Shown: positions 1 through 48,222, numbered from the stretch's first letter. The stretch: DNA of 57,652 nucleotides from Actinomycetes bacterium (GCA_021847945.1 JAJZNG010000194.1:1-57652), one strand, 5' to 3'. Translations and numbers: made by a program. Notes: a model not told the origin generated them from the sequence alone.

Positions 1-126
1 TTCCGATTTTGACAGCGCACGCAACAGCAGCACTATCCCCACCTTAATCCCCACCACCTTTGCAGCGGCTCCAAACAAGGCTGGACTGGTGGTCCGGAGC
101 ATTCACAGGCGGTCAGCCGCTGCTCC

Positions 127-582
127 TTACCGCTCGACGCGGAGCCAATCGGTGAGCCCAGCAAAAAGTAGCACCTTATAGACCATGGCGGAGGGCGAGG
201 TGATGACGACGTCACGTCCGCTTTTGCGGATAAAGCACAGCGCACGGTGAACTTCTCGAACTCCCCTTGCGTCGAAAAAGCTTACAGCCACGAAATCCAA
301 CTCAATGAGATGTGGCTCGCCCGTAACACAAGACTTGATGCATACGCTGAATTCCTCGGCGCTCATACCGTCAAGCTCGCCTCGCAACGCCAACACTGTC
401 CGATCCGAAGACTTCATCTTCGAGCACTCGAAACGATGATCATTACCTAGCTCACGGCGGTCATCTTTCCCTGCAGACTCCCACGTCGCGCCTGCTCTCG
501 CTCCCTTCACACCAAACGCAGCCCAGCCTGGCTGACTAGACGCGTCAAACATCTTGGGATCCACTATTACTCGCATCAGCAA
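127..582 (-). CDS. STAS-domain protein (anti-anti-sigma factor-like); true start may be internal
   Basis: ORF translation contains a STAS-like core LRGELDGMSAEEF...LIELDFVAVSFFDARGVREVHRA...GRDVVITSPSAMVYKVLLFAGL. Confidence 0.7.
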   Translation of the reverse strand: MLMRVIVDPKMFDASSQPGWAAFGVKGARAGATWESAGKDDRRELGNDHRFECSKMKSSDRTVLALRGELDGMSAEEFSVCIKSCVTGEPHLIELDFVAVSFFDARGVREVHRALCFIRKSGRDVVITSPSAMVYKVLLFAGLTDWLRVER

Positions 583-722
583 ACCGACAACAGCTCAACG
601 ACCGCAAACCCGAGTCCCCCCGACGATCGAACACACCGTAAGCGCAAGCGTTCACCCGCATGCCTTCTGTCGACATCTACACCTCCTCCTCGACGGTCCC
701 ACCCTTAAGCGGGATCACAGCC

Positions 723-762
723 AGTGCCAAGGGGGCGAGGCCATGGTCTGGAGCGGCGTCAC
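723..762 (-). promoter_or_regulatory. Conserved leader motif, variant class (copy A): CGCCGCTCCAGACCATGGCCTCGCCCCCTTGGCACT
   Basis: Near-identical to 33541-33580, also upstream of a STAS-like ORF on the minus strand; shares the GCTCCAGACC core with copies at 10.2, 10.5, 13.7 and 24.0 kb. Confidence 0.5.
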
Positions 763-1399
763 CGAGACGTACGGCACCAAGATCCTACCAAAATGCTCCG
801 CTGGTCACAAGTAGTGGTAGAGCCAGATGCCGAGAAGCGCTGCGTGCTTCGTCCTCAGTCCGATACAAATAGAAATCTGACTTCCCTTCGGCCTAGTCTC
901 CCTCGAAGTCCGAGCGGCGGCTCCCCAAACCCAACGCAGGAGCACCACAGGTCGACACGTCGACGCCACACCCCCAGGGATACATGGAGCGTAGACCGCA
1001 CGGCGCCGCACCCTTTCCACTTAGACGACACAGACACCCGCAACGACTGCCACGAAGTACCGTCCCTGTGATAACCTAAGAGGAGTCTCGGCCACCTTGC
1101 AGCACCTGACCGGAACGCGACGCTCCTACGAACGCCGCCTAGGCCTCTCCAGTCCATGGAGGCTTTCTAACCGTTAGCACTACGGCTCTGAGAAAGTATC
1201 CACCGACACTATGCAGATTAGTTTGTACGACCCTCACAGGTACAGACGGGCACATCTACTACGCCACCTAGTGTCACAGTTGGATCAACTCTCACCGTAG
1301 AGCAATACGCGACCTGGAAGTGAACCTGCTGTAGGCAGGCCTCACCTCAGGTACCTATTTCTAACAATAGAGCGGACTCCGCGTTAAAAGGACCTCATT

Positions 1400-2851
1400 T
1401 TGGCAACTACCATTATCCGCCATACCAACCGCTGGTCGGTCCCCGCACTGACAGGGGCCGCCTTAGTAGCTACGGCAATAATAGCAATCACCAAAAGCCA
1501 TCTCGTCGACGTCACGATGATAGCCGGTGACCTTCTCTTCTTCGCAGCCCTACGTTATACCAGATGGCGTGGGTCTACATCCACGTCAACTTCACACACG
1601 GATCCAACCGCTCCAGACTCGAAGTCGCTACCTTTACGTCGACACCCGGCAATCGAATTATTGCTCTATCTATCGCCTGTCATATTTCTCGGAATCGCGT
1701 ATCCATTAATAGCCGGCAGGATCTCGAGCGACCACATCGGTGGAGTACCACTAACGACATTATTGTTAGGATCCTCCGTAACAGTGCCGTGGTTGACGCA
1801 AGCGGTCTGCCTGCCGCTCTACAAAGCCATCGCCGCACAGATCGCTGACGGCGACCCCCACCGTCTCCGGGATCGTGTGTGCGACGTCTGGCCGTCGGCC
1901 TTTCTACGTAGTCTTCCGACGGTCGTCGTATTTGCCATTCCGGTGGAGATCGCGACTCGCTGGTCGATCACAGCCTTAGCCGTGTATGTCTCTCTCTGCG
2001 TTCTTTATGTGGCATTCGCTCAGTCGCTGATCCTAAGCATCGTTCTTCGAGATCGTCTGCTCTGGGCCTTCGCATGGGGAAGTCTCGCCGTGACGCTTCT
2101 CATCGCGCCATCTTTGTGGTTCCTTCCTCCCCTTATCGCCATCGGAACTCAGCTAATACCGCTCCGCAAGCACCTGTACCGCATGACACGACGCCAACCG
2201 ATCGAGAGAGGTGAGGTATTCGTCGACCTCGTAAGGGGCTTGCTCCTCGGTTCGGTTCTCTGGGCTGACAAACTGCTCCTGTTCGTAAAAGACGGTAGCC
2301 ACTTCGCTGTGACTGCGATCTTCATCGGCCTCCTCCCCGCAGTGTTAGCGTACAACTACTACTTTGTTCGCTTGGCACCTCAGTTCGACTCTCACGTGGG
2401 AGATCTGCGTGCCGCCATGGAAGAAGCCGCCCATGAAAGTCTCAACGCGCATTCCAGTGCAGTGTTGCGCTACGTCGCATATTCCCTCAACCGAACTGGC
2501 CTAGCGGGTGCATCGCTGGTGCTTTTGATCACTGCACTCACCGGGCTTGTCGACCCCTCGTCGCTTGCCCTGGTTGCGACCGTGGCTGCGGCCTCTTGGC
2601 TGTTTATGATGACAACACTTGCCTGCTACAAGCTGGACTACATTGGCCAGAGGTTCACAGCACAGTTTTACAGCGGTCTTCACCTCGTGGGGTGTTTCAT
2701 CGTTTTCTCCGTAGTTGCTATTGGGCCGAGCCTCTACCTCTGGCTGATTGCGATTGACACGATTATCTTCGCCCGAGCGTTGTACAGTGTCAACGCTCAT
2801 TGGCGTTCATCCGAATATAACTTGTTCTGGCGTCATGCGACGGCCTGGTAA
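1400..2851 (+). CDS. Polytopic membrane protein, PelG-like
   Basis: 483 aa with many hydrophobic segments; the segment GSVLWADKLLLFVKDGSHFAVTAIFIGLLPAVLAYNYYFVRLAPQFDSHVGDLRAAMEEAA resembles PelG; directly upstream of a PelF-like GT. Confidence 0.65.
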   Translation: MATTIIRHTNRWSVPALTGAALVATAIIAITKSHLVDVTMIAGDLLFFAALRYTRWRGSTSTSTSHTDPTAPDSKSLPLRRHPAIELLLYLSPVIFLGIAYPLIAGRISSDHIGGVPLTTLLLGSSVTVPWLTQAVCLPLYKAIAAQIADGDPHRLRDRVCDVWPSAFLRSLPTVVVFAIPVEIATRWSITALAVYVSLCVLYVAFAQSLILSIVLRDRLLWAFAWGSLAVTLLIAPSLWFLPPLIAIGTQLIPLRKHLYRMTRRQPIERGEVFVDLVRGLLLGSVLWADKLLLFVKDGSHFAVTAIFIGLLPAVLAYNYYFVRLAPQFDSHVGDLRAAMEEAAHESLNAHSSAVLRYVAYSLNRTGLAGASLVLLITALTGLVDPSSLALVATVAAASWLFMMTTLACYKLDYIGQRFTAQFYSGLHLVGCFIVFSVVAIGPSLYLWLIAIDTIIFARALYSVNAHWRSSEYNLFWRHATAW

Positions 2852-2864
2852 GGAGTTCTCTGAA

Positions 2865-4640
2865 ATGTTCGCTAGCCATTTGTTCCGCTCCAAGGCCCAC
2901 GATGCCACGTATCAAGTTCCGCCACGGCCGCAGGATAGTCGAGAGGATCCGAGGGTCGTGGTGCGTGGAGGGCTACACGTGGAAGTCGATGTTGCAATAG
3001 TGGCGGAGTCGACATACCCTTTTCTCAAAGGAGGCGTATCGACGGTTATACATGATATCGTATGCGGAAACCAGGACCTCAGTTTCGGCATCATCCACAT
3101 CACGTGGGACGCTACTTCGGCACGTGAGGATCTTTATGGCATGCCAGCGAATGTAAAGTGGGTTTATCCGGTGTATCTGAGCATGCAGGAGCACCTGGAT
3201 GATTTTGTCAACGTTGATCCCTACTCGCTGAAGCTTCGATCTTCGGAGCGAACTAGGCTTGCGAATCGTATATTCGATGCGCTAGAGGCTATTTCGCAAG
3301 GTGAGAATGCCCTGGCGTTGGATCTCTACGATATCGGAATGAATCCCCGGACTCGCGAATACTCGGTCTGGACGGTGCTGGGAACGAAGGAGTTCATGAC
3401 AGTCGCGAGCAAGCGGCTCAGTGGGCTGGAGCTTTCGCTCGTCGACATGTTCTGGCTTCTGCGGGAGTTCTTCTCTTTGTCCTTCGCTATCCTTGGCGAG
3501 GACATACCGTCTGCTCGCGTATACCATGCGCACACGACCGGATACGCTGCGCTACTCGGAGCGATCGGGGCACGGCAGAACGATTCGGAGTTTCTTCTCA
3601 CCGAACACAACCTCTATGTTCGCGACACAGTCAACACGCTACTGAATCGCAGCTTAGCCTTAACCTTGAGTGGACGCGACTGGCACGAGTTCGACGTCGG
3701 TCCCCTGGAACGCTTGTGGATGGCCTGGTGGATCGAGATGGGCCGCTTCTGCTATCCCATGGCCGCGGTCGTCACGTATCTCTATCCATCGGCCATCACT
3801 GAGGCAGCTGATCTAGGTGCTCCCCTGGAGAAGGCCGTAGTGATCCCTAACGGAATGAAGGTGGACAGTTTCGACGCAGTATACGCTGAGCGTTGCCGGG
3901 CTATCGACCGGATCGAGGTTGAAGGCAGCGATCGGATGTGGAAGCTGGTTTACATCGCACGCATCGTGCCAATCAAGGGCCTCTCCGACCTGATCAGCAC
4001 GGTGGACCTGCTAGTCAGACGGGGCATAACCAATTTCACGCTTGATATTCTCGGGCCTACCGACCACCATCCTGACTACTACATGCTTTGTCGCGAGAAG
4101 GCACGAACCCTTGGAGTAGAGGACTACCTCAACTTTCGAGGTATGGTGAATGTGAGGGAGCTTCTCGGAGAGTTCGACATCTTGGTGCTACCCAGCTACA
4201 ACGAGGGCCAGCCGATCGTCGTGCTCGAGGCGATGACAGCAGGCATACCTGTGGTCGGAACCAATGTTGGTGGTATGGCACAGCTTATATCTGATCCTCT
4301 TACCACCCCCGGAGGAAGGACGTTCGATGCATGCGGTATTCTAGTCAACCCTGACTATATCGTCGGAATGGCCGACGCCCTCCAAGAGGTGATGGAATCT
4401 GCCGACGGCTACAGGCACTTCGCTGAGCAGGCGAGGGGCCGCGTAGTCAATTTCTTCCAGATTGACGACGTGATGGGCTCCTACAACAGGCTCTACAAGG
4501 AGCTCGCACGCCTCCCAGGGAACACCCTCGAAGATGCCGACCTGGACATCCCATTGGTAATCGACCTCACCGACCCCTCCGATGAGAGCACCGCCGCCCG
4601 GGAACCCAACAGGCTCGGGGTTGGATCGCCCCTCAAGTAA
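2865..4640 (+). CDS. PelF-like GT4 glycosyltransferase
   Basis: VDVAIVAESTYPFLKGGVSTVIHDIV N-terminus, LLTEHNLYVRD, IPNGMKVDSFD, VLPSYNEGQPIVVLEAMTAGIPVVGTNVGG; start placed at ATG 2865 behind AAGGAG (the ORF track extends to 2748). Confidence 0.85.
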   Translation: MFASHLFRSKAHDATYQVPPRPQDSREDPRVVVRGGLHVEVDVAIVAESTYPFLKGGVSTVIHDIVCGNQDLSFGIIHITWDATSAREDLYGMPANVKWVYPVYLSMQEHLDDFVNVDPYSLKLRSSERTRLANRIFDALEAISQGENALALDLYDIGMNPRTREYSVWTVLGTKEFMTVASKRLSGLELSLVDMFWLLREFFSLSFAILGEDIPSARVYHAHTTGYAALLGAIGARQNDSEFLLTEHNLYVRDTVNTLLNRSLALTLSGRDWHEFDVGPLERLWMAWWIEMGRFCYPMAAVVTYLYPSAITEAADLGAPLEKAVVIPNGMKVDSFDAVYAERCRAIDRIEVEGSDRMWKLVYIARIVPIKGLSDLISTVDLLVRRGITNFTLDILGPTDHHPDYYMLCREKARTLGVEDYLNFRGMVNVRELLGEFDILVLPSYNEGQPIVVLEAMTAGIPVVGTNVGGMAQLISDPLTTPGGRTFDACGILVNPDYIVGMADALQEVMESADGYRHFAEQARGRVVNFFQIDDVMGSYNRLYKELARLPGNTLEDADLDIPLVIDLTDPSDESTAAREPNRLGVGSPLK

Positions 4641-4666
4641 ACCGGCTTGGCCGTCGATGGCGGGGG

Positions 4667-5908
4667 GTGAGGAAAACTTCCGGCGTAACCCGCATCGCAA
4701 CCTTCGTGATCCTCGCCGCCAGCGCGACCCTCAGCTGGCCTGGGACGACTGAGAGCTCCATCGTCAACCTTTCGGCTCCGGGTGTCCAGGTGCCTACTTC
4801 GATCCTGGCTTCTGCCGATTCATCCAGTACCCTGCCATGTGCTCAACAGTCGCTACTTCCCGCGTACTTTTATCCCGGGGCGGCATGGCAGAGTGCTCTC
4901 AGCAGCGCTACCCCTGGCTCCTCTATCATCGTTAATCCGTCGAGTGGGCCGGGAACAACGCCCAATGCTGCCTACCAACAAGTCATCGCAGCAGCCCGGT
5001 CCGAGGGCGTGCGCCTCTGGGGTTACATCGATACAAAGTACACTTCTACACCGCTCGGGTCGATCGATAGTCAGATCGCGGACTACCAGGAGTGGTATGG
5101 CATAACGAATATTTTCTTCGACGACGCTTCTAGCAGCGCAGGTGACCTCTCTTACTATCGCCTGGTTAGCCAGGCGGTACGCACCGCAGATCCTGGCGCA
5201 TCGGTGATGCTCAATCCTGGGGACTACCCCGACTCCTCCTATGCCAGCTTGGGGGACGTCCTGGTCGTCTTCGAAGGTGACTATCAGTCTTTCCTCCAAT
5301 CTGAGCCCCCGTCGTGGGTTAATACCCTGCCGGCCGACATGTTTGCCGCCCTTGTCTCGGCGGTACCGGCAGCGCAGATGCCCTCGGTCGTAGCTCTCTC
5401 GTCTGCGCGCAACGTCGGCTACACGTACGTGACCGACCACGTGGATGTGGCGACACTTTACGAGCAGTTGCCCAGTTACTGGACCGCCGAACTACAGGAC
5501 CTCTCTGCGAACTGTGGGTCCGGACCTACACTCACCGCCCCCTCGCAGCCGGGGTCTGCTTCAAGCAGCCAGCCGGGGACGGTAGATCCGCCAGGTCTTT
5601 CGGATCTGCCGCCGGGCGAGCCCGGCGCTCCGGCTGTACCTAGCCCTGCGTCGAACCCAGGTTCGCTCGGAGACAGTCTCGGCTACCGCATGGTGACATC
5701 TACCGGCGGAGTGCTCACCTTCGGCGACGCCGCCTTCTACGGCACCACAGCCTCAAAACACCTCAACGCCCCCATAGTCGCCATGGCCCCAACCCCCGAC
5801 GGACACGGCTACTGGCTAATCGGCGCAGACGGCGGAGTCTTCACCTTCGGCGACGCCGCCTACTACGGCACTGGCGTCTCCCTGAGGCTTCCCGTCGTCG
5901 GAATGTAA
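4667..5908 (+). CDS. Secreted spherulin-4 / GH135-like hydrolase with Pro/Ser linker and a short C-terminal repeat tail
   Basis: Signal-like N-terminus; PAYFYPGAAWQSAL...IIVNPSSGPG...LWGYIDTKY...YQEWYGITNIFFDDASS...VMLNPGDYPDSSY...VVFEGDYQSF; tail with two GGVxTFGDAxxYGT units. Confidence 0.75.
   Translation: MRKTSGVTRIATFVILAASATLSWPGTTESSIVNLSAPGVQVPTSILASADSSSTLPCAQQSLLPAYFYPGAAWQSALSSATPGSSIIVNPSSGPGTTPNAAYQQVIAAARSEGVRLWGYIDTKYTSTPLGSIDSQIADYQEWYGITNIFFDDASSSAGDLSYYRLVSQAVRTADPGASVMLNPGDYPDSSYASLGDVLVVFEGDYQSFLQSEPPSWVNTLPADMFAALVSAVPAAQMPSVVALSSARNVGYTYVTDHVDVATLYEQLPSYWTAELQDLSANCGSGPTLTAPSQPGSASSSQPGTVDPPGLSDLPPGEPGAPAVPSPASNPGSLGDSLGYRMVTSTGGVLTFGDAAFYGTTASKHLNAPIVAMAPTPDGHGYWLIGADGGVFTFGDAAYYGTGVSLRLPVVGM
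5713..5888 (+). repeat. Two imperfect 126-bp (42-aa) repeat units at the C-terminus of the GH135-like protein
   Basis: GYRMVTSTGGVLTFGDAAFYGT... and GYWLIGADGGVFTFGDAAYYGT..., with ttcggcgacgccgcc repeated at a 126-bp period. Confidence 0.75.
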
Positions 5909-5972
5909 GGACCCGGATCGTAGGTTACGGACCAACTCGTCGCATTCGACGCTGTCACTTCCTGTAGAGCAA

Positions 5973-7064
5973 GTGGTACTGTGGGACATGGTAGGTACTC
6001 ATGGTGCTTGGGTGCGTTATGGCGACGTGATTACGGACGCTGAGGTTGACTTCGCAGTTGAGCACTACGCCGTGGCGATACTCCAGCCGTGGGAATCATC
6101 TGTGGCAGTGCGGCTAAAGCAAGCCCGGTCTGACATGACGGTCATATGCTATAAGTGTCTTTCGTCGTCTCGAAGCTACGAGCGTGGCCCGATCTACACT
6201 TCCGGGGTCAGCCACGAGGAGGCCGAAGAGTCCGGGGAGCACTGGTTCGCCCATCGCGAATCCGGTGAACGTATTGAGTGGGCCCACTACACGGGACACT
6301 GGCAGATGGCGGTCTGGGAAGCAGACTACTGCGAACGGTGGTGTGACAATGTTACCGACGAGTTGGCAGACTCGCCATGGGACGGGGTAATGGCCGACAA
6401 CGACGTCTACGACGACTACTACGGCCTGCGTCCACCGATAGAAGGCGGGCGCTCAATGCACGATATCCGCGTCGCGCTCGACCGTCTAGTCCCAATGGCT
6501 GGCGTCCGTCTTAACTCCATCGGAAAGATACTCCTTCCGAACATCGCCGAGTCGCGCCGAGAAAAGGGCCGCTGGGCTCGCCACAGCGCTTTTGGTGGCG
6601 GCTTCGAGGAAGTCTGGCTCGCCTACGGCCCCGACGACTACTTCGACGCACAAACCTGCCTTTCCCAGGCCAACGAGCTACGCGGACCAGGCCTGCGAAT
6701 CCTAAGAACCGCCTCGGATGGCAACGAAAGTCACCCGAACTTTCTTTATGGCCTCGCAGCAATGTGGGTCTTCTTAGGCCCCCACCCAGGCTGTTTCACC
6801 GCGACAGCCCACGACGGATACTCGTCGACTCCGTTCGTAGCCGAGCTCGGCGTCGACCTCGGTGAACCCGACGAAGACCCCTGCCAGCGCGGCAACGGTT
6901 GGTCCAGGTCGTTTAGCGCAGGATGGGCCGCCGTCAATCTCAACTCAAACCGCCGCCGCAAGGTCACCTTCCGGGTCCCCCCCGGACTCCACGACACCAA
7001 CGGAACGCCAGCACCCCCGCAAGTAACTTTAGAACCCCACCACGGCATCCTATACCAACGCTAA
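5973..7064 (+). CDS. GHL15-like putative glycoside hydrolase
   Basis: Translation has the TIM-barrel glycosidase feel of the family: WDGVMADNDVYDDYYGLRPP, GGGFEEVWLAYGP; no obvious signal peptide. Confidence 0.6.
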   Translation: MVLWDMVGTHGAWVRYGDVITDAEVDFAVEHYAVAILQPWESSVAVRLKQARSDMTVICYKCLSSSRSYERGPIYTSGVSHEEAEESGEHWFAHRESGERIEWAHYTGHWQMAVWEADYCERWCDNVTDELADSPWDGVMADNDVYDDYYGLRPPIEGGRSMHDIRVALDRLVPMAGVRLNSIGKILLPNIAESRREKGRWARHSAFGGGFEEVWLAYGPDDYFDAQTCLSQANELRGPGLRILRTASDGNESHPNFLYGLAAMWVFLGPHPGCFTATAHDGYSSTPFVAELGVDLGEPDEDPCQRGNGWSRSFSAGWAAVNLNSNRRRKVTFRVPPGLHDTNGTPAPPQVTLEPHHGILYQR

Positions 7065-7300
7065 GCGCAACAACACACCCTGCTGAGCCTGCAGCCACCA
7101 TCCCCGCGCCATCTACAACTCTCCCATCAGGATCCCCCACTACTAGCTGCACCAAAGGACCAGTGTCCATTAGCAGGGATCGTAGCGGGCTCCCGCCGAT
7201 CACAATTAGCCGGGCCGGATGCGACTCCTTAGCAGTGTGACTGCGTCGATCTAGCAGGTTTATAAACGGTAGCCTGTGATCACTTGGCTATCACGGCCAG

Positions 7301-7897
7301 TCATCGCGACCAGCCGTGATAACCGCTGTGGCCCTCGAGAAGATCGTCGAGGTATTCAGACATCCGGCCCCGTATAGTGGTCTGTGTCCGCCGCCCAGAA
7401 AAGGGGCTTGTCCGTCCAGCGATCCGTCTAGCCTCCAAGGCTAGGCGCGCTGCCAGTACGTCAGGGTCTGTGTTGGTCGAAGATTCCTCAAGGAGCCACC
7501 CGACGTCGACACTCTCGGCAGTGTCATGTTGTTGAAAGTTGACTCTAATGTTAGACACGATCCGATCAATCTCAGCTACATTCCTATCGTAGAGAGCATA
7601 GGGGCTAGGTCCAAGAGTCGCTTGTCGCAGTTGCTCTAATAGGGCTGATCGGCGTTGGGTGTCCGATAGAAGAGGTGTCGAAGTGTGACGGCCATTTGGC
7701 AGTTCTTCTAGGATCGGGCACAGAACTGACTGGATGACCGAGTCGTGGATCGCGACAGAATGGCGAAGTTGACCAAGGACATATAGTCGGTTGCTAGCAC
7801 TGTTACTGTCGGTTGCAATTTCTATCAACTCGCTGATCTCTTTGTCATAGCTTACTAAGAGATCTCTGACGCTGGTATCTTCTGTCAACCGTGACAC
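7301..7897 (-). CDS. Hemerythrin/HHE-domain-like protein
   Basis: EDTSVRDLLVSYDKEISELIEIA...LGQLRHSVAIHDSVIQSVLCPILEEL resembles actinobacterial HHE-domain proteins. Confidence 0.6.
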   Translation of the reverse strand: MSRLTEDTSVRDLLVSYDKEISELIEIATDSNSASNRLYVLGQLRHSVAIHDSVIQSVLCPILEELPNGRHTSTPLLSDTQRRSALLEQLRQATLGPSPYALYDRNVAEIDRIVSNIRVNFQQHDTAESVDVGWLLEESSTNTDPDVLAARLALEARRIAGRTSPFSGRRTQTTIRGRMSEYLDDLLEGHSGYHGWSR

Positions 7898-8058
7898 GGT
7901 CGTTCCTTCCTTAACTTCGTTAGACTACCTGCTTAGCTGGGATCCTGCTAGCTTCAAGTGAAATGCTTCTTTTATGTCATATCCGGTGCGTTAGACATTC
8001 CTATCTCTCCGTATCCTGCTGGTCAGGCATTGACAGGTATAGACTTTCAAACGATCAA

Positions 8059-8121
8059 GAGTTTCTCGCACTGCGGGACATCGCTGGGGGATGGCGACCT
8101 CGGCCGCAGTGCGAGAAGCTC
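8059..8121. other. Long near-perfect inverted repeat (RNA hairpin candidate)
   Basis: GAGTTTCTCGCACTGCGG (8059-8076) pairs with CCGCAGTGCGAGAAGCTC (8104-8121): 17 Watson-Crick pairs plus one T-G; 27-nt loop. Confidence 0.85.
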
Positions 8122-8488
8122 TCCAGCACTTGTGAATACACCTTAGAGAGCGGTCGACGTTCGAATCGACTTCCGCTCCGTCCGAGCACAACGCACTCCA
8201 AGTCCGTACCTGTCTGCCTGACAACTTACGCCTATCACCTGTACGTCGAGAACTGGCGACCGTGGTCTAGAGCAGCGTAGTGACGACTTGTTTCTGCAAT
8301 CATCATACAGGGGTAAGACGGGAAACACAAGTAGATCTCAGAGCGCCAAGGTGCTGAACCGGTCGAATCGTTCACCCGTCCCGGTTCAGCGCAAGGCTGC
8401 TCGCCGAGGAGGGAGTCCCCTCTACGGCGATCGCTTCCAAGTCAATGTCCGATCCGTAGAAACGGGTTGCGGACATGGCGAACTAGGT

Positions 8489-8653
8489 TCACCAACGGAA
8501 GAAGCGGTGCCGGCCAGAGGTCGAGCCTCGCCCGATGGCAGCGCCCACGAGCCAGACAGCGAGCAAGATCAGAGCTACAATCCACAGCAAATGGACTGCG
8601 AAGCCCACACCTGCCACTATGAGCACGAGTAGTAGAGCTAGTAATAGCAACAT
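8489..8653 (-). CDS. 54-aa hydrophobic small membrane protein (lmo0937/DUF5670-like)
   Basis: Hand translation MLLLLALLLVLIVAGVGFAVHLLWIVALILLAVWLVGAAIGRGSTSGRHRFFRW*; below the ORF-track length cut-off; paralogue at 36581-36745. Confidence 0.8.
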   Translation of the reverse strand: MLLLLALLLVLIVAGVGFAVHLLWIVALILLAVWLVGAAIGRGSTSGRHRFFRW

Positions 8654-8710
8654 TTCAGCCACAACCTTTTCGAGTTGGTAATTTTGATCTTTTCATGCCT
8701 TCACACCTCA

Positions 8711-8965
8711 TCAGGGTCGGTGCTCTTCTTGCGAGACTACCTGTGGTGTCCCGTCGCCAACGACAGTTCGGCTACGTCGAGAGCCGGAGATCGAAAGTGC
8801 TACGATAGAGACGATCGCTCCAAATCCACCGACTGCCATCAAGATGATGCCAACTGTGTGGATGTTGAAGCCATGTTGATAAGGGCTTACTGTCAGAGCG
8901 AACTTCATTACTGCTCCTACAGCGATCGCAACAATGCTTATGCCTAGACCTATTCCCATTTGCAA
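8711..8965 (-). CDS. DUF6458-like small two-TM membrane protein
   Basis: MGIGLGISIVAIAVGAVMKFALTVSPYQHGFNIHTVGIILMAVGGFGAIVSIV; paralogue at 36802-37056. Confidence 0.8.
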   Translation of the reverse strand: MQMGIGLGISIVAIAVGAVMKFALTVSPYQHGFNIHTVGIILMAVGGFGAIVSIVALSISGSRRSRTVVGDGTPQVVSQEEHRP

Positions 8966-9241
8966 TACTCCTTTTGTTGCCGTGAATATCTTCTACCCAA
9001 TATTCGGGGTCTCTAACCTACAAGTGAGACGTGTTCGCAAAAGTGCCGGCGGCGTTTGCCCGTCCAAAGAGACGTCTTATCTCAAGAGAATAGATGTCAG
9101 CTTGTTCGGCCTCTATCCAGGAGAGCGAGCAACGGGATGCTGACCGTTCCACGTTACGCCAGCAGTCCCAGTATCGGCTCTGCTTCGACGACCCGAAGTA
9201 AGGGCAGGTTGCGCTAGGTGTTTAACACCGGTCGCTTGATG

Positions 9242-9748
9242 TCACTCGGTGAGAGTCCCTCCCTCATCTGCGCGGACTCCTTGTGCTTCGTCGCCATATT
9301 GTTGGCTAGCCGGGGGCTGGGTGCTCGGCGCTGGGCTCTGGAAGAGGATGTAGAGCCATACGAGTGAAGGGACTACGATGACAGCTCCGATTACCAAACT
9401 CGCGAACGTCGCAGTGAGTACCGAGGATGTAGCGGCTGCCGATGAGATCGTGAGCCCAGGATCGAGCAGATGAGGGTATTGCGCTACCGCCCAGGCCCAC
9501 ACAACTGCCGTTACCGCTACGGCGGCAGCGAAACGTGCCAGGACAAAGCGTGAAGCGAACAGCAGTATAAAGGCGGCGATGCCGGCAGCCCCAGAGAGGA
9601 ACACAAGGGCGATCGCCCGGTGGGCCAGTCCATGGGCGAGGACGGGGGCCTTACGATGCAGAAAGACCAAACCCATGGCGGCGATCGCCCCAGCGACGGC
9701 GCCAGCAATCAAGGCCCGGGTACGAAAGTAGGTGACTAAAGTGCCGTC
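9242..9748 (-). pseudogene. Cytochrome bd oxidase subunit II (CydB-like) C-terminal fragment
   Basis: TYFRTRALIAGAVAGAIAAMGLVFLHRKAPVLAHGLAHRAIALVFLSGAAG...LLDPGLTISSAAATSSVLTATFASLVIGAVIVVPSLVWLYILF; N-terminal half absent. Confidence 0.7.
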
Positions 9749-10029
9749 GCCCCTGCGGCGGGCGTCGGATCGACGGACGTGACTTCGGCGTTTACGAACT
9801 GGCTTCCGTCATGGTCATGGAATCGGACCGTATCCATATGCATCGTCAACAGGGGGTCACGATCGGCGAAGACCTCCATGGGAATGTTGGGGACAAAGGA
9901 CAGGTAAGGGTTGTGATCGATTACCGTGAGCCTCACCCCACTCCCGGCCAGAGCATGGATAAACCGTGCGGTCGTCAGACCGGCAAAGCTGCTTCCTAAG
10001 ACCACGACATGCGCCTGAGAGGGCGAAGT
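9736..10029 (-). pseudogene. FAD/NAD(P)-dependent oxidoreductase (NDH-2/SQR-like) N-terminal fragment
   Basis: MTSPSQAHVVVLGSSFAGLTTARFIHALAGSGVRLTVIDHNPYLSFVPNIPMEVFADRDP; truncated after about 98 aa at the junction with the CydB fragment. Confidence 0.7.
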
Positions 10030-24065: not shown

Positions 24066-25413
24066 GGCGCTTCCGGGTTTTGAGTGGGTGAATCACACGA
24101 ACAGATGTTCGCTAGAACGACGTCGGGGTCCTCGGCAACGATGGCAAGATGCGTGACACCGAGCTCTACCGCCACCTGTTGGGACTCGTCGCCCCCTGGG
24201 AGGTGAGTCGGGTCGAGCTCTCGGTCGGCGGGGGTCGGGTGGACGTGTGGGCCGAGCATCCGAAGGGCACTCGGTTCGCTTGCCCCGAATGCGGTGCAGA
24301 ACTGGCCGTCTATGACCACGCCGAGGAACGAGCCTGGCGTCATCTCGACAGCTGCGCGTTCTTGACCTACCTGCACGCCCGCCCTCCTCGCGTCAGCTGC
24401 GCCGACCATGGAGTCCGGCAGGTGGCCCTCCCGTGGGCCGAACCGATGAGCCGCTTCACCGTGCTCTTCGAGCGTCTGGCGATCGACGTGCTGCAAGAGT
24501 GTGACGTCGAAGGCGCGGCCCGGCTCCTGCGGCTCAGCTGGGACGAGGCGTGGCACCTGATGGACCGTGCGGTCGCACGAGGGCTCGAGCGAAAGCCCCA
24601 CGTCGTCCCGGCCCGTATCGGTGTCGACGAGAAGGCAGCAGGCCGGGGCCAGGACTACATCACCGTCGTGTCGAACATCGACACCGGCACGGTCGAACAC
24701 CTTGCCGACGAACGGCGTCAGACCAGCTTGGACGGCTTCTTCGAGAAGTTCAGCACTGAGGAGCGCGAAGGCATCGAGGCAGTGGCGATGGACATGTGGG
24801 ACCCCTACATCGCCTCTGCGCGCGAGCACCTTGCCGACGCGGACCAAAAGATCGTCTTCGACCGCTACCACCTCATGAAGTACCTCACCGGAGCCGTCGA
24901 CACCGTGCGCAAGCAGGAGAACCGGGCCCTCGCTGCTACAGGAGACAAGAGCCTTTCGGGGACGAAGTACCTCTGGCTCTACTCGGCGGAGAACCTCCCC
25001 GAGCGCCACCAGGACCGGTTCGCCGCCCTTCGAGGCGGCGACCTGAAGACCGCGCGGGCGTGGGCGATCAAAGAGAGCCTGCGGCACTTCTGGCTCTACA
25101 AGCGCAGGGGCTGGGGGGAGAAGCACTTCCGGCGCTGGTACTTCTGGGCAACGCACTCGCGTCTGCAGCCGGTGATCGACGCGGCACGCACCCTAAAGCG
25201 CCACAAGGCGGGGCTGATGAGCTACTTCGCCCACCGGGTCACCAACGCCGGCGCCGAAGGCCTCAACAGCCGCATCCAGGCGATCCGGGTCTCCGCTCGC
25301 GGCTATCGCAACCGCGAGCACTTCAAGACCGCCATCTGGTTCCATCTCGGCGGACTCGAGCTCGACCCGACCACCCCGTGACCTGGGCTACCCACGGAGA
25401 ACCCGGAAGCGCC
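24066..25413 (+). mobile_element. ISL3-type insertion sequence, 1348 bp, with TIRs and an 8-bp TSD
   Basis: TIRs GGCGCTTCCGGGTTtTgaGTGGGT / GGCGCTTCCGGGTTcTccGTGGGT; exact direct repeat GAGAAAAG at 24058-24065 and 25414-25421. Confidence 0.95.
24149..25381 (+). CDS. ISL3-family transposase
   Basis: ACPECGAELAVYDHAEERAWRHLDSCAFLTYLHARPPRVSC...IGVDEKAAGRGQDYITVV...DRYHLMKYLTGAVD...EGLNSRIQAIRVSARGYRNREHFKTAI. Confidence 0.9.
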   Translation: MRDTELYRHLLGLVAPWEVSRVELSVGGGRVDVWAEHPKGTRFACPECGAELAVYDHAEERAWRHLDSCAFLTYLHARPPRVSCADHGVRQVALPWAEPMSRFTVLFERLAIDVLQECDVEGAARLLRLSWDEAWHLMDRAVARGLERKPHVVPARIGVDEKAAGRGQDYITVVSNIDTGTVEHLADERRQTSLDGFFEKFSTEEREGIEAVAMDMWDPYIASAREHLADADQKIVFDRYHLMKYLTGAVDTVRKQENRALAATGDKSLSGTKYLWLYSAENLPERHQDRFAALRGGDLKTARAWAIKESLRHFWLYKRRGWGEKHFRRWYFWATHSRLQPVIDAARTLKRHKAGLMSYFAHRVTNAGAEGLNSRIQAIRVSARGYRNREHFKTAIWFHLGGLELDPTTP

Positions 25414-28430: not shown

Positions 28431-29257
28431 ATGGGAGAGCTCAGTTCCTGCCACTCCCGTTCGTTGGTGTCATCGGTTGGTTCTTCGTGACTAGCGCGCA
28501 TTTCGGCCCGTTCAACGCGTCTGGGGGCAGCCTGTACAGCGGAATCGGCATCGTCGCCGGAGTGGCACTGTTCTCCTTCATCGGCGTGGAGGCCGCTACG
28601 GTAATGGGCCTGGTAGCCCACGCCACTTTGGTCAAGACGGGCTCGCCATTCGTCAACGCCTTCCAGACGATATTCCCGAACGAGGCTTGGGCACCGAAAG
28701 TCATTGCTGCCATTGCTGTCATATCCGGTATCGGAGCCCTCAACGGCTGGACTCTTATCGTGACCGAAACGTCAAGAGCCATAGCCCAAGACGACCTGTT
28801 TCCGAAGCCGTTCGCCTGGGTCGACCGTAACGGCACAGCCTGGTTCGGCATAGTCGTCGGAACGATCCTGCCGTCACTGCTCATGTTCTGGCGCTACGAG
28901 TCCAGCTCCGGACTTACCATCTTCACCTACCTGGTCGACCTCACCGTAGTTACGGTAGCCATTCCCTATTTTATGTCGGCCATCGCCCAACTCACCTACC
29001 TCGTCTCGCGGCGCCGGCGGGTGTCCGGGTGGCTTCTAGCCCGAGACCTAACGGTAGCCGGAATCAGCGTGCTTTTCTCGATGTGGGTGACCTTCGCTTC
29101 GGGCTACCAGGTCGTCTACCAAGCGCTGGTGGTGATCTTGGCCGGCCTCATCCTCTACGCCTTCTTGAACGCCCGCCGGCAACGCCTGTGCGAAGCGTCC
29201 GAGCCGGTGGACAACCCGCAAGCCCAACCGGCGCTCGACCTGACCAAGGCCCCGTGA
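28431..29257 (+). pseudogene. APC-family permease (ArcD-like) lacking its N-terminal part
   Basis: LYGRAQFLPLPFVGVIGWFFVTSAHFGPFNASGGSLYSGIGIVAGVALFSFIGVEAATV...; about 270 aa, first TM helices missing; directly upstream of arcA. Confidence 0.6.
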
Positions 29258-29304
29258 CCGCCGCACGACATGCAACCGAACCCCTTCCAAGAAAGGAACA
29301 AGCC

Positions 29305-30525
29305 ATGACATTCACCGTCGCTTCCGAGGTAGGCCAACTCCGCCAGGTGATCGTGCACAGGCCCGGGCTGGAATTGTCCCGGTTGACTCCCGACAACATC
29401 GAGTCGCTCCTGTTCGACGACGTGGTGTGGGCATCCAAGGCCAAAGAGGAACACGACGCTTTCACCGAAGCCCTGCGCGAAAGAGGTGTGCGGGTCCACT
29501 ACTACGGCCAGTTGCTGGCCGAGACGCTCAGCCTTCCAACTGGGCGTGCCTTCGTGCTAGACCGGCTGTGCACCCCGCAGCTCTTCGGGCCGTCGCTGGT
29601 AAGCCAGGTGCGGCAACTCTTCGACGACCAAGACGACAAGACCTTGGCGGAGTTCCTGATCGGCGGGATCCTCAAAGCAGACTTGCACCCGCTGCGAGCC
29701 CACAGCCTGAAGTGGAACATGCTTAAAGCCGACGATTTCATCCTCCCTCCGCTGCCAAATCATTTGTTCCAGCGGGACAACTCGTGTTGGATCTATGGGG
29801 GAGTGACTATCAACCCGATGGCTTGGCCTGCCCGCCAACGCGAGTCGCTACACACCCGGGCGATCTACCGCTTCCATCCACCCTTCGCGGACCCCGATTT
29901 CGTCACTTACTACGGTGAGGACGACATCACCTACCAGCCGGCCACCATCGAAGGCGGCGACGTGCACGTGATCGGGCACGGAGCGGTCCTGATCGACATG
30001 GGAGAGCGGACCACCCCTATGGCCATCGAATCGGTAGCCCACTCGATGTTCGACAGCGGCCAAGCTACCAAAGTCGTAGCGATCGAACTGCCGCACAGCC
30101 ACGCGTTCATGCACCTCGATACCGTCATGTCGATGGTCGACGTGGGCACGTTCATTCTCTACCCCTACTTCAATCGACACCTCCGCAGCTGGACCATCTC
30201 GCCGGGCGAAAGCCCGGGCGAACTGTCTATCGTTCGTAACCACAGCCTATGGGACACCTTGGCCGAGATCCTCGAAGTGCCCGAGATCACCGTCTTGACC
30301 ACCGACGAGGACGTCAGGGCCGCAGAGCGCGAGCAATGGGACGACGGCACGAACTTCCTGGCTGTATCCCCTGGGGTGGTAATGGGCTACGAACGCAACG
30401 TCGCTACCAACACCATGCTGCGCAAGCACGGCATCGAAGTGATCGACATCGGCGGTAGCGAGCTCGGCCGCGGTCGAGGCGGCCCGCGCTGCATGACCTG
30501 CCCCATAGAGAGGGACCCAGCATGA
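29305..30525 (+). CDS. arcA: Arginine deiminase
   Basis: [74 protein letters not shown]. Confidence 0.95.
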
Positions 30526-31544
30526 CCAGCACCGACGTCGCAGCTTCCCGCAGCCTGAACGGCAGAAGCCTTCTAAAAGAGGTCGACCTCACCAAGGAAG
30601 AGTTCGTCTCGCTCCTAGATCTTGCTGACGCGCTGAGAACGGAGAAGCGCAACGGGACGGAACGTCAGCGGATGACCGGCCTCAATATCGCCCTCATCTT
30701 CGAGAAAGCCTCGACACGCACCCGTTGTGCCTTCGAGGTCGCCGCCTACGACCAGGGAGCGCGCGTCACCTACCTCGGCCCCGACGGTAGCCACATCGGT
30801 GTCGGTGAGACGATCAAAGACACCGCCCGGGTGCTCGGCCGAATGTTCGACGGGATCGAATACCGCGGGTTCTCCCAGGAATCGGTGGAGACCCTAGCCC
30901 GATTCAGCGGGGTACCCGTGTGGAACGGGCTCACCGACCAGTGGCACCCCACCCAGATGCTCGCGGACGTCTTGACCATCCGCGACCACACCGACAAAGC
31001 CCTTGAGCACGTCACGTACTGCTACGTGGGCGACGCACGCAATAACACGGCCAACTCCCTCCTTGTCACCGGCGCTCTCCTCGGCATGGATGTCCGCATC
31101 GCCGCACCCGAGGATCTGTGGCCCAGCACTGAGGTTCAAGGCATCGCCTCCGGACTTGCCTCTGGTTCGGGAGCACGGATCAACATAACTGCCGACCTCG
31201 ACGAAGGGGTCCGTGGATCCGACTTTATCTACACCGACGTATGGGTGTCCATGGGCGAACCGGACTCCGAATGGAAGGACCGGATCAAACTGCTTCTTCC
31301 CTACCAGGTAAACGCTGCGACCATCAAGGCCACCGGGAACCCGAACGTCAAGTTCATGCACTGCCTGCCGGCGCTGCACAACGCCGACACCGACCTCGGT
31401 AGAAGAATTTCCAGTCTGTACCAACTCGACGCCCTGGAAGTAACCGACGAGGTCTTCGAGTCACCGGCCACCATCGTATTCGACCAGGCGGAGAACCGGC
31501 TTCATACCATCAAAGCGGCCATGGTCGCCTCTCTCGGGGACTGA
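30522..31544 (+). CDS. arcB: Ornithine carbamoyltransferase, catabolic
   Basis: [48 protein letters not shown]; overlaps arcA by 4 nt. Confidence 0.95.
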
Positions 31545-31545
31545 A

Positions 31546-32484
31546 ATGCGTATCGTCGTGGCCGTCGGCGGGAATGCGCTCCTCGAACGCGGCGAGGTCC
31601 CCCTAGCCGAGATCCAAGAGAACCACGTTCAGGTCGCCGTCAACGCTCTGGCCCAGTTGGCAGCCGGACACGACCTTGTGGTCACCCACGGCAACGGGCC
31701 GCAAGTCGGGATGCTGGCGAACGAAAGCGCCTCGGACCCGGCCCTGCCCCACCCGTACCCGCTCGACGTGCTCGGCGCTCAAACCCAGGGCATGATCGGC
31801 TACTTCCTACTTCAAGCATTCGAAAACGCGCTACCCGAGCGCGAAATCGTTAGCCTCGTCTGCCAGACCGAGGTCGCCTCCGACGACCCAGCATTCCTCA
31901 CGCCAACCAAGTTCGTCGGACCGCAGTACAGCGACACCGACGGCCACCGAATCGCCGAGGCGCGCGGTTGGCAGATCCGACGGGACGGGCCCTCATGGCG
32001 CCGAGTCGTCGCCTCCCCCGAACCCTTGGCTATCGTCGAGATCGCCACCATCCGAACGCTCCTCGCCGAGCGCTCTATCGTTATCTGCGCCGGAGGCGGC
32101 GGCATACCAGTCACCCGCGGCGCGGACGGGCTGCTTCGCGGCGTTGACGCAGTCATCGACAAGGACCTCACCGCCGCGCTCCTCGCCCGCAACCTCCACG
32201 CCGATGCGCTTCTGATCCTCACCGACGTGCCCAATGTCGAAACTGACTTCGGCACTGCTGGAGCTCACGCCATCGGGCGCACCACGCCCGGAGCGCTACG
32301 CAAGGAGGCTTTCCCAGCCGGATCCATGGGGCCTAAAATTGAAGCCGCATGCCGTTTCGTCGAAGCGACCAGCAACCCAGCTATGATCGGCAGCCTCGAC
32401 GAGGCCGCCGACCTCCTCCAAAAGACGCGTGGCACCATCATCGAACCCGACGACCCGCCGCCAGACCTTCCAGCAAGCCTCTGA
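31546..32484 (+). CDS. arcC: Carbamate kinase
   Basis: MRIVVAVGGNALLERGE, VVTHGNGPQVGML, VICAGGGGIPV, AVIDKDLTAALLA. Confidence 0.95.
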   Translation: MRIVVAVGGNALLERGEVPLAEIQENHVQVAVNALAQLAAGHDLVVTHGNGPQVGMLANESASDPALPHPYPLDVLGAQTQGMIGYFLLQAFENALPEREIVSLVCQTEVASDDPAFLTPTKFVGPQYSDTDGHRIAEARGWQIRRDGPSWRRVVASPEPLAIVEIATIRTLLAERSIVICAGGGGIPVTRGADGLLRGVDAVIDKDLTAALLARNLHADALLILTDVPNVETDFGTAGAHAIGRTTPGALRKEAFPAGSMGPKIEAACRFVEATSNPAMIGSLDEAADLLQKTRGTIIEPDDPPPDLPASL

Positions 32485-46081: not shown

Positions 46082-47407
46082 CTAGCGGATATCGGATGCT
46101 GCGCTAACCGTATTGCCACCGTTCCTCTTGGACTGGTACAAAGCCACGTCCGCCGCCTTCATCAGCGCGTCGGCATCCCGGCCCGCGGAGGGGTAGACAG
46201 CCAATCCAATCGAGGTCTTCTGCTCCCAACCAGGTGCGAGCTCACTTGCGCATCCGGCCACGCACCCCGCCACGATCGCTTCACCAACACGCAGGCCGTC
46301 CCTCTCGCTCATCCCGGGGCACACGACCATGAACTCCTCCCCTCCCATCCTTATGACAGTGTCCGCCTTTCGGACACTGCCCTGGAGGAACTCGGAGAAT
46401 CTCCGCAGGACGTCGTCGCCAGCCGCGTGACCGAACGTGTCGTTCGCCTGCTTGAAGTTGTCAAGATCCAAGTAGATAAGACACAGGTAGTCATCCGACA
46501 TCTCCGCCAGCTTGAGAACCCGGTTCAGAATCGAGATGCCGTGGCGACGGTTGGCGACGCCGGTGAGCGAGTCGGTCTGAGCCTCGGCGAGGAGGCGCTG
46601 GCGTTCCGCCGCGCGGGTCATCGCAGCCGCAAGCAGACCGATCATGTCGGTCACGGTCTTTTCGTCCTCCGGCTGGGGGGGGACCGCCCAAGCCACGCCA
46701 GCCTCGATCGTGCCATCGGGCAGCACCAAAGCCGGCAGCTGCTCTTGAGGATCCAAACCTGAAGCGAGAGTTATATAGCCTCCCACCGCGGGGTGCGTTA
46801 TTCGCAGGTTGACGCCCGACAGCTTCGGAAGGTAGGACATGGCCTCTACGAGGTCTCGAAGGTCGGGCCCGGTCGGCTCGTCCCCGAGACCGTGTATAAG
46901 CCTCGCCGCGTCCCCGAGCGCCGCCTGCCGGCGAATACGCTCGGACTCCGACACTATGAGGAGACCGGAAGCCACCTGCTCGCTGACGGCGTCGACCAAT
47001 TCCTGAGATCCGACGTCAGCTAGCTCGAAAAGGCATGTCAGGTCCCCCGAGCCCTGGTCGCCGAGAGCCAGCGGGCTGCGAACCGCTTCTTTAGGAACAC
47101 TCGCTGATAACTTCCCGGCTGGAGCGTCTAACTTCCCGGCTGGAGCGTCGCCGCGCTCGGCTGCTATCGGTGGCACGCCGGCTATCTCACAGGTGAGCTG
47201 ACTCCACTGCACGGGAAGAAACTGGTCGACGATGGAGATCGCCGCCTCGGAGTAGGTGGAAACGTCAGTCACGTGAGCGGAAAGCCGAGCCAGCTCGAGG
47301 AGGCACTCGGTGTGTACTAGCCGGATCATCAACTGCGCCCTGTCTGACTCGCGGAACTCTGCCAGGCGTTCGGCTTCGCGTTCGGCGAGCGCTCTCAACG
47401 CGCTCAT
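46082..47407 (-). CDS. Diguanylate cyclase (GGDEF) with N-terminal sensory region
   Basis: DSLTGVANRRHGISILNR...LCLIYLDLDNFKQANDTFGHAAGDDVL...ADTVIRMGGEEFMVVCPG; start overlaps the HDOD gene stop (ATGA). Confidence 0.9.
   Translation of the reverse strand: MSALRALAEREAERLAEFRESDRAQLMIRLVHTECLLELARLSAHVTDVSTYSEAAISIVDQFLPVQWSQLTCEIAGVPPIAAERGDAPAGKLDAPAGKLSASVPKEAVRSPLALGDQGSGDLTCLFELADVGSQELVDAVSEQVASGLLIVSESERIRRQAALGDAARLIHGLGDEPTGPDLRDLVEAMSYLPKLSGVNLRITHPAVGGYITLASGLDPQEQLPALVLPDGTIEAGVAWAVPPQPEDEKTVTDMIGLLAAAMTRAAERQRLLAEAQTDSLTGVANRRHGISILNRVLKLAEMSDDYLCLIYLDLDNFKQANDTFGHAAGDDVLRRFSEFLQGSVRKADTVIRMGGEEFMVVCPGMSERDGLRVGEAIVAGCVAGCASELAPGWEQKTSIGLAVYPSAGRDADALMKAADVALYQSKRNGGNTVSAASDIR
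47108..47149 (-). repeat. 21-bp tandem duplication inside the GGDEF gene
   Basis: taacttcccggctggagcgtc twice in tandem, encoding DAPAGKL DAPAGKL. Confidence 0.9.
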
Positions 47408-48222
47408 ATATCCGCTCCGAGCCGGGTACTGAACCGGGCGAAGGACTTCCGGGTTGCTCGAAGCACTTGGGCGGGCTTCACCCAGAGGCGGCATTCGTCG
47501 ATGACCTCCTCAAGAGGCCTGGAATCCTCGTGGCAGGAAAGTCCGACGGCCTCTGCTACGGCCGCCTCCCCGATGGCAACCGCTTTCGTCAGCTTCCCGG
47601 CGCCTACGAGGGGAAGGTGGTGGTCTCTCACGGCTTCGACGAGGCTCTTGGGGAAACCCCACTTGGCGACGGCAGCGGCGCCCGCCTCGGGGTGGTCGGT
47701 GCCGAAAGCCGACCGCTCGTGCTCGAGGAGTCTCTCCCCGCCACGACGCACCACGGTGGCATAGAGAGCTGGGTCGCGAAGGTGCAGCAGGACGGCTCCG
47801 ATGTCGTGGAGCAACCCGGCGGTGAAAGCCTCCCCAGCCCCCACCTCCAGCTCAGCTGCGACGGTCGACGCCGCAGCGCCGACCTCCATGGCGTGAGGCC
47901 AGAAGGAGTCAGGACCGAGATCCACGCCGTCGGATAGCAGCGGGAACGCGGCCGCGGCGGTTATCGCTTGGACCGCCGACGAGCCGAGCATCATCACGGC
48001 TCTGGTCGCAGAAGCGACCCCTCCCCTAGTTCCGTAGGCGGCCGAGTTCGCCATCCGAAGCACCCGGGCGGAAAGTACCGGGTCTATCTCGACGATCTCG
48101 GCGAACTGCGACAGCGAAGCATCGGGATCGTCGATCAACTCGAACAGTCGGGTCGCCGTCGATGGCCTGATAGGCAACCTACGAGCCAGCTCGTCCCAGT
48201 CAACCGAAGCGCCCTTACCCAC
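47404..48222 (-). CDS. HDOD-domain signalling protein
   Basis: LARRLPIRPSTATRLFELIDDPDASLSQFAEIVEIDPVLSARVLRMANSAAYGTRGGVASATRAVMMLGSSAV...AGLLHDIGAVLL. Confidence 0.9.
   Translation of the reverse strand: MGKGASVDWDELARRLPIRPSTATRLFELIDDPDASLSQFAEIVEIDPVLSARVLRMANSAAYGTRGGVASATRAVMMLGSSAVQAITAAAAFPLLSDGVDLGPDSFWPHAMEVGAAASTVAAELEVGAGEAFTAGLLHDIGAVLLHLRDPALYATVVRRGGERLLEHERSAFGTDHPEAGAAAVAKWGFPKSLVEAVRDHHLPLVGAGKLTKAVAIGEAAVAEAVGLSCHEDSRPLEEVIDECRLWVKPAQVLRATRKSFARFSTRLGADI

Follow-up and report, generated by a model that had tools for sequence, protein, structure and literature searches.

A probable divergent and reduced Pel-type exopolysaccharide locus with a GHL15 partner in an actinobacterial contig

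We analysed a stretch of 57,652 bases (hereafter the window) from an Actinomycetes bacterium (GCA_021847945.1 JAJZNG010000194.1), which is one entire contig of a 3.0 Mb assembly in 243 contigs, 90.5% complete. Four open reading frames (ORFs), all on the + strand, form one array occupying 1400-7064 and encode a multi-pass membrane protein, a PelF-family glycosyltransferase, a GH135 hydrolase and a GHL15 protein. We consider it likely that together they make up a divergent, reduced locus for a Pel-type exopolysaccharide. The features are:

1400-2851, + strand: PelG-related multi-pass membrane protein of 483 amino acids, a predicted MOP-superfamily exporter (profile-profile comparison and fold); its C-terminal end is EYNLFWRHATAW
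2850-2855, + strand: AAGGAG, which serves pelF as ribosome-binding site and overlaps the stop codon of the gene before it (direct sequence reading)
2865-4640, + strand: PelF-family glycosyltransferase of family GT4, 591 amino acids, with an EX7E motif (NF038011, PF11997 and tree)
4667-5908, + strand: GH135 hydrolase of the Spherulin-4/Sph3 type, predicted to be exported (PF12138 and PDB matches)
5988-7064, + strand: GHL15 glycoside-hydrolase-like protein, 358 amino acids, no signal peptide (PF14885)

The tight same-strand array described by a first-pass annotation of this DNA is borne out by the ORFs, with intergenic distances of 13, 26 and 79 bases in gene order. Two starts were revised: that of pelF from 2748 to the ATG at 2865, which AAGGAG precedes, and that of the GHL15 gene from 5973 to the ATG at 5988, in agreement with the starts of its orthologues. 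The overlap between AAGGAG and the preceding stop codon couples the membrane-protein gene tightly to pelF. All three enzyme families named by the annotation also hold: PelF scores 223 bits against NCBIfam NF038011 (cut-off 100) and 133 bits against PF11997, the GH135 protein 144 bits against PF12138, and the GHL15 protein 143 bits against PF14885.

The membrane protein, annotated as PelG-like, required closer comparison. No Pfam match, PelG (PF16933) included, was found for it or for any of the 8 members of its family; its orthologues are 36-64% identical. Hidden Markov models (HMMs) thus place the protein outside PelG, literally the outcome that the annotation had named as speaking against its own proposal; profile-profile and fold comparisons nevertheless recover a relationship to PelG and the MOP superfamily. 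Comparison by hhalign of a profile of the 8-member family with a profile of 9 diverse PelGs gave an in-register alignment of 196 columns towards the two C-terminal ends (P=1.7e-4), which persisted in leave-one-out comparisons (P 5e-5 to 1e-3). The real score was 40.1-42.8, the lower value coming from the same preparation as local column shuffles, which gave a mean of 18.6 (sd 4.3); neither unrelated multi-pass proteins nor membrane proteins from galactosaminogalactan (GAG)-type operons scored above 24.8. Similarity searches with a single sequence or a 4-member profile were negative, the signal emerging only once 8 members were set against the 9 diverse PelGs, and a gapless test restricted to the EYxxFxR motif at the C-terminus gave no significant result (p 0.17). 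An AlphaFold model of low confidence ranked WzxE first and MATE proteins next (best E 0.018), and PelG itself is a member of the MOP superfamily (PMC13254593). From the profile similarity, the predicted fold and the place beside PelF, we strongly infer that the protein is a PelG homologue diverged beyond the reach of HMMs. If so, the current HMM can fail to recognise homologues of PelG, and surveys keyed on PF16933 would therefore overlook Pel loci.

The PelF phylogeny also supports a Pel-type reading. In a tree of 24 sequences, for which the program warned of long branches meeting, a branch supported at 100/99 parts the PelFs of GAG-type operons, which have Agd3 and GH114, from the canonical Pel PelFs plus the window group. 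The PelFs of the window group are monophyletic on a long stem branch (2.28). By this phylogeny, the window PelF groups with canonical Pel PelFs, apart from those of Agd3/GH114 operons.

How widely the arrangement is conserved was surveyed in a collection of one genome per species (84,980 species), scanned once with the membrane protein, which returned three relatives. One locus (L042) has the four genes in the same order as the window, and a second metagenome-assembled genome (MAG) holds the same cluster divided between two contigs (L041 and L074); since the four-gene order recurs in both, the arrangement is more than chance. Between the window and L042, each of the four genes has diverged mostly at third codon positions (0.21/0.16/0.56 at positions 1/2/3 in PelF), at about 2-3 times the first-position level, and the four genes are therefore under purifying selection. 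A divergently transcribed GHL15 gene adjoins those for the membrane protein and PelF in Virgisporangium aurantiacum (L043), and likewise in four further genomes of the family (L098-L101); GH135 is absent from these core loci. Among 72,556 plasmid records, the membrane family and GHL15 have matches on a single plasmid, the conjugative pTC2 of Paenarthrobacter aurescens TC1 (L106; CP000476.1, 246248-253710; AAur_pTC20228-20231), where the genes lie together, membrane protein first and then PelF, GHL15 and galE. Successive genes from pelF to galE share 4-5 bp there, and the core genes are labelled integral membrane protein, glycosyl transferase and hypothetical protein. Membrane protein, PelF and GHL15 are thus common to nine loci (window, L042, L041/L074, L043, L098-L101 and pTC2). 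L098-L101 also have an epimerase gene after pelF and, after GHL15, a gene for a secreted DUF4874/DUF4832 protein; with a weaker match on pTC2, DUF4832 lies near the core in five loci. Gram-positive pel operons are known to include epimerase and DUF4832/DUF4874 genes as accessories (PMC7112168), and the DUF4832 protein SIR_1591 of S. intermedius is an active hydrolase that disperses Pel aggregates (PMC12345266). The reduced Pel subtype delineated in this way is coherent and rare, spread over actinobacteria and present on a plasmid.

The constant partner of the membrane protein and PelF is GHL15, not GH135. Acidic residues D137 and E207/E208 of GHL15 are invariant in 8 orthologues, and at core-type loci the protein has neither a hydrophobic N-terminus nor a signal peptide; its sequence indicates that it is probably a cytoplasmic enzyme. 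It was found in only 6 of the 148 genomes of the window's order, and phages gave no GHL15 match. We tried GHL15 as a relative of galactosaminidases and rejected this, as the fold search ranked GH168 first. If the Pel-type reading is right, the uncharacterised GHL15 family gains a context, probably intracellular and encoded by a gene that overlaps pelF on pTC2, and P. aurescens TC1 offers a culturable host for studying this putative synthesis-side glycosidase.

GH135, among core-type loci, is limited to the window and its two nearest relatives. The window protein has a hydrophobic N-terminus and C-terminal GDAxYYG repeats, and it matches PDB entries 5c5g and 5d6t with E about 1e-16. Its D152 and E203 align with the catalytic pair of Sph3, and the catalytic D and E are invariant in 7 aligned GH135s. 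We take the Sph3 pair to be Asp166/Glu222, which is compatible with the Asp-Glu spacing of 56 residues in the 5d6t alignment. In print the pair is given as Asp196/Glu222 (PMC12054363). By analogy, GH135 in the window lineage may take the place of exported hydrolase that DUF4832 holds elsewhere. Repeats of the GDAxFYG(S/T) form (window 5650-5905), possibly a wall- or sugar-binding propeller, reappear on other proteins of the relatives (L038:42-842; L067); a candidate GH135 in L038 was rejected, the match being just this common C-terminal repeat.

What the locus lacks bears on its product. Next to the window cluster there is no PelD, PelE, PelA, Agd3 or galE, as the annotation had noted for PelD, PelE and a recognisable PelA; the search for PelD and PelE covered the genes adjoining the core, the rest of the genome not being searched. 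HMMs detect no PelG in the window's assembly or in its order. Agd3 (PF25115) and GH114 are absent from the three four-gene genomes (G000, G749 and G750) and from the genes adjoining the core, generic CE4 enzymes elsewhere not having been searched. A canonical pel operon elsewhere, which the annotation had held against itself, is thus not seen in the 90.5% complete assembly. Sph3 (GH135) cleaves N-acetylated stretches of N-acetylgalactosamine (GalNAc), while Ega3 (GH114) requires deacetylated ones (PMC7229062, PMC12054363). Since deacetylase and GH114 are both absent and GH135 is retained, a mostly N-acetylated polymer fits, and the gene content suggests an N-acetylated, GalNAc-rich product. 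The Pel of S. intermedius, which is cut by Sph3 and PelA and not by Ega3 (PMC12345266), is by analogy a precedent for such a GalNAc-rich product.

From the gene identities, their linkage and conservation, the catalytic residues and the PelG-level profile similarity, we infer how polymerisation, export, trimming and regulation might proceed. Judging from characterised PelFs, the GT4 enzyme would most likely polymerise UDP-GalNAc in the cytoplasm, and the PelG-derived MOP-type membrane protein, as its family and fold suggest, would pass the growing chain outward. Inside the cell, where it would stay because it has no signal peptide, GHL15 would most likely trim or clear chains at the PelF/exporter complex; this is the weakest step of the scheme. 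The exported GH135 would cut the N-acetylated alpha-1,4-GalNAc polymer outside, freeing or remodelling it, and so do the job of PelA-H or of the DUF4832 hydrolase in other pel loci. Because neither PelD/PelE nor PelA-DA/Agd3 stands alongside, the locus probably lacks direct gating by cyclic di-GMP (c-di-GMP), and its polymer would probably be mostly N-acetylated and weakly charged. A bolder proposal, which we hold only tentatively, is a separate Pel subtype without PelD, PelE or deacetylase, in which a cytoplasmic GHL15, as obligatory partner of PelF and a divergent PelG, activates the synthase or takes over its quality control, and which makes a neutral poly-GalNAc that is N-acetylated throughout. 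If true, the minimal unit for Pel-type synthesis and export would be PelF plus a PelG-like exporter, with PelD/PelE gating and deacetylation as add-ons.

Several observations weigh against a Pel-type assignment. The membrane protein is recognised as PelG by no sequence HMM, its hhalign probability with PelG is only about 50%, 1 of 150 column shuffles equalled the real score of 42.8, and its AlphaFold model is poor (predicted local distance difference test, pLDDT, 50.7). The structure model of GHL15, also poor (pLDDT 47.7), is most like GH168 fucanases, not galactosaminidases, and its substrate may therefore differ. The window cluster includes no epimerase gene, none having been sought in the rest of the genome, the MAGs are incomplete, and the substrate specificity of GH135 is drawn from fungal enzymes. 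Finally, B. cereus and S. intermedius need all of the pelDEA(DA)FG genes, and a system without PelD, PelE and PelA is thus unproven.

Some of these points would also suit a polysaccharide system that had co-opted a PelF-like GT4 and a flippase resembling Wzx/MATE to make another polymer, a glycan of the capsule or wall type. The failure of HMMs to call the membrane protein PelG, the nearness of the GHL15 model to GH168, the long PelF stem and the lack of a donor-sugar gene in the window cluster could all be read in this way. However, the GH135, epimerase and DUF4832 partners all indicate a GalNAc polymer, and the four-gene array has no Wzy, initiating transferase or additional glycosyltransferases; we therefore regard this explanation as unlikely.

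Alternatively, the locus could descend from a GAG-type bacterial operon after loss of agd3 and ega3. Such operons are common in the class: seven loci (L033-L037, L039 and L075) have PelF with Agd3-type and/or GH114 genes and multi-pass proteins, with GH135 in L035 and L075, and a 2020 paper reported Spherulin-4 genes in Agd3 operons of actinobacteria (PMC7229062). They resemble the window locus in being small actinobacterial synthase operons with GH135, but the window has no Agd3 or GH114, and its PelF lies on the Pel side of the 100/99 branch, away from every GAG-type PelF. Moreover, the membrane family is unlike GAG-type membrane proteins (best score 24.8) and similar to PelG, and V. aurantiacum carries both kinds as separate loci, the GHL15-type Pel locus and a second one (L075) with consecutive genes for an Agd3-like protein, a PelF paralogue, a protein with 12 transmembrane (TM) segments, GH135 and GH114. 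Disfavoured by the tree, this origin seems quite improbable. The 9-12 TM proteins beside PelF in L033-L039 have no Pfam match and fall into several mutually dissimilar groups; this exporter class of GAG-type operons appears to be unnamed.

That the window holds a non-functional, decaying remnant of a pel operon is very improbable: PelD, PelE and PelA are missing, and the GHL15 of L042 is interrupted by a frame change while the GH135 repeats of L074 lie in a different frame (both possibly assembly errors), but the window ORFs are intact with all catalytic residues retained, divergence is concentrated at third positions, and the core is kept in nine loci, including the plasmid with its overlapping genes.

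As a reduced Pel-type locus, the cluster can be set beside known systems. With the Gram-positive pelDEA(DA)FG operons of B. cereus and S. intermedius it shares a PelF-family GT4, a PelG-related exporter and an accessory hydrolase, and its relatives add galE and DUF4832; it differs in having no PelD, PelE or PelA-DA alongside, a PelG beyond HMM recognition, a constant cytoplasmic GHL15 partner and a pelG-like gene before pelF. Two single-contig actinobacterial genomes (L102, 4993-14139, and L105) likewise encode PelF, PelG and GH135, the last on the opposite strand. In contrast to the window, their PelG is a true PelG, an Agd3-type (fungal GAG-like) deacetylase stands where PelA would, L102 has a PelD-like GAF-GGDEF gene upstream, and no GHL15 was seen at either locus. 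The fungal GAG cluster (uge3, gtb3, agd3, ega3, sph3) also places GH135 beside a polysaccharide synthase, whereas the window cluster has no epimerase, Agd3 or Ega3, and its bacterial glycosyltransferase and exporter are separate. Because L102 and L105 combine true PelG with GH135, and given the report of Spherulin-4 in Agd3 operons (PMC7229062), the pairing of PelF/PelG with GH135 was already known. The distinct architecture suggested by the first-pass annotation thus stands for the GHL15 partner and not for GH135: what is distinctive is the cytoplasmic GHL15, the diverged PelG and the missing PelD, PelE and deacetylase. What seems new is the reduced, GHL15-containing subtype.

The left flank of the cluster extends 1.4 kb to the contig end and contains a gene for a STAS protein on the - strand. 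Over window 1-10000, cluster included, the G+C content is 0.54-0.62, compared with 0.63-0.66 for the 4 kb that follow, and blastn found no flanks common to the window and L041/L042/L074; the low G+C and unshared flanks make a recent acquisition of the cluster region possible. Farther along the window lie an ISL3-family transposase (24149-25378), consecutive genes for arginine deiminase, ornithine carbamoyltransferase and an amino-acid (carbamate) kinase (29029-32484), and a diguanylate cyclase with a GGEEF motif (46085-47494).

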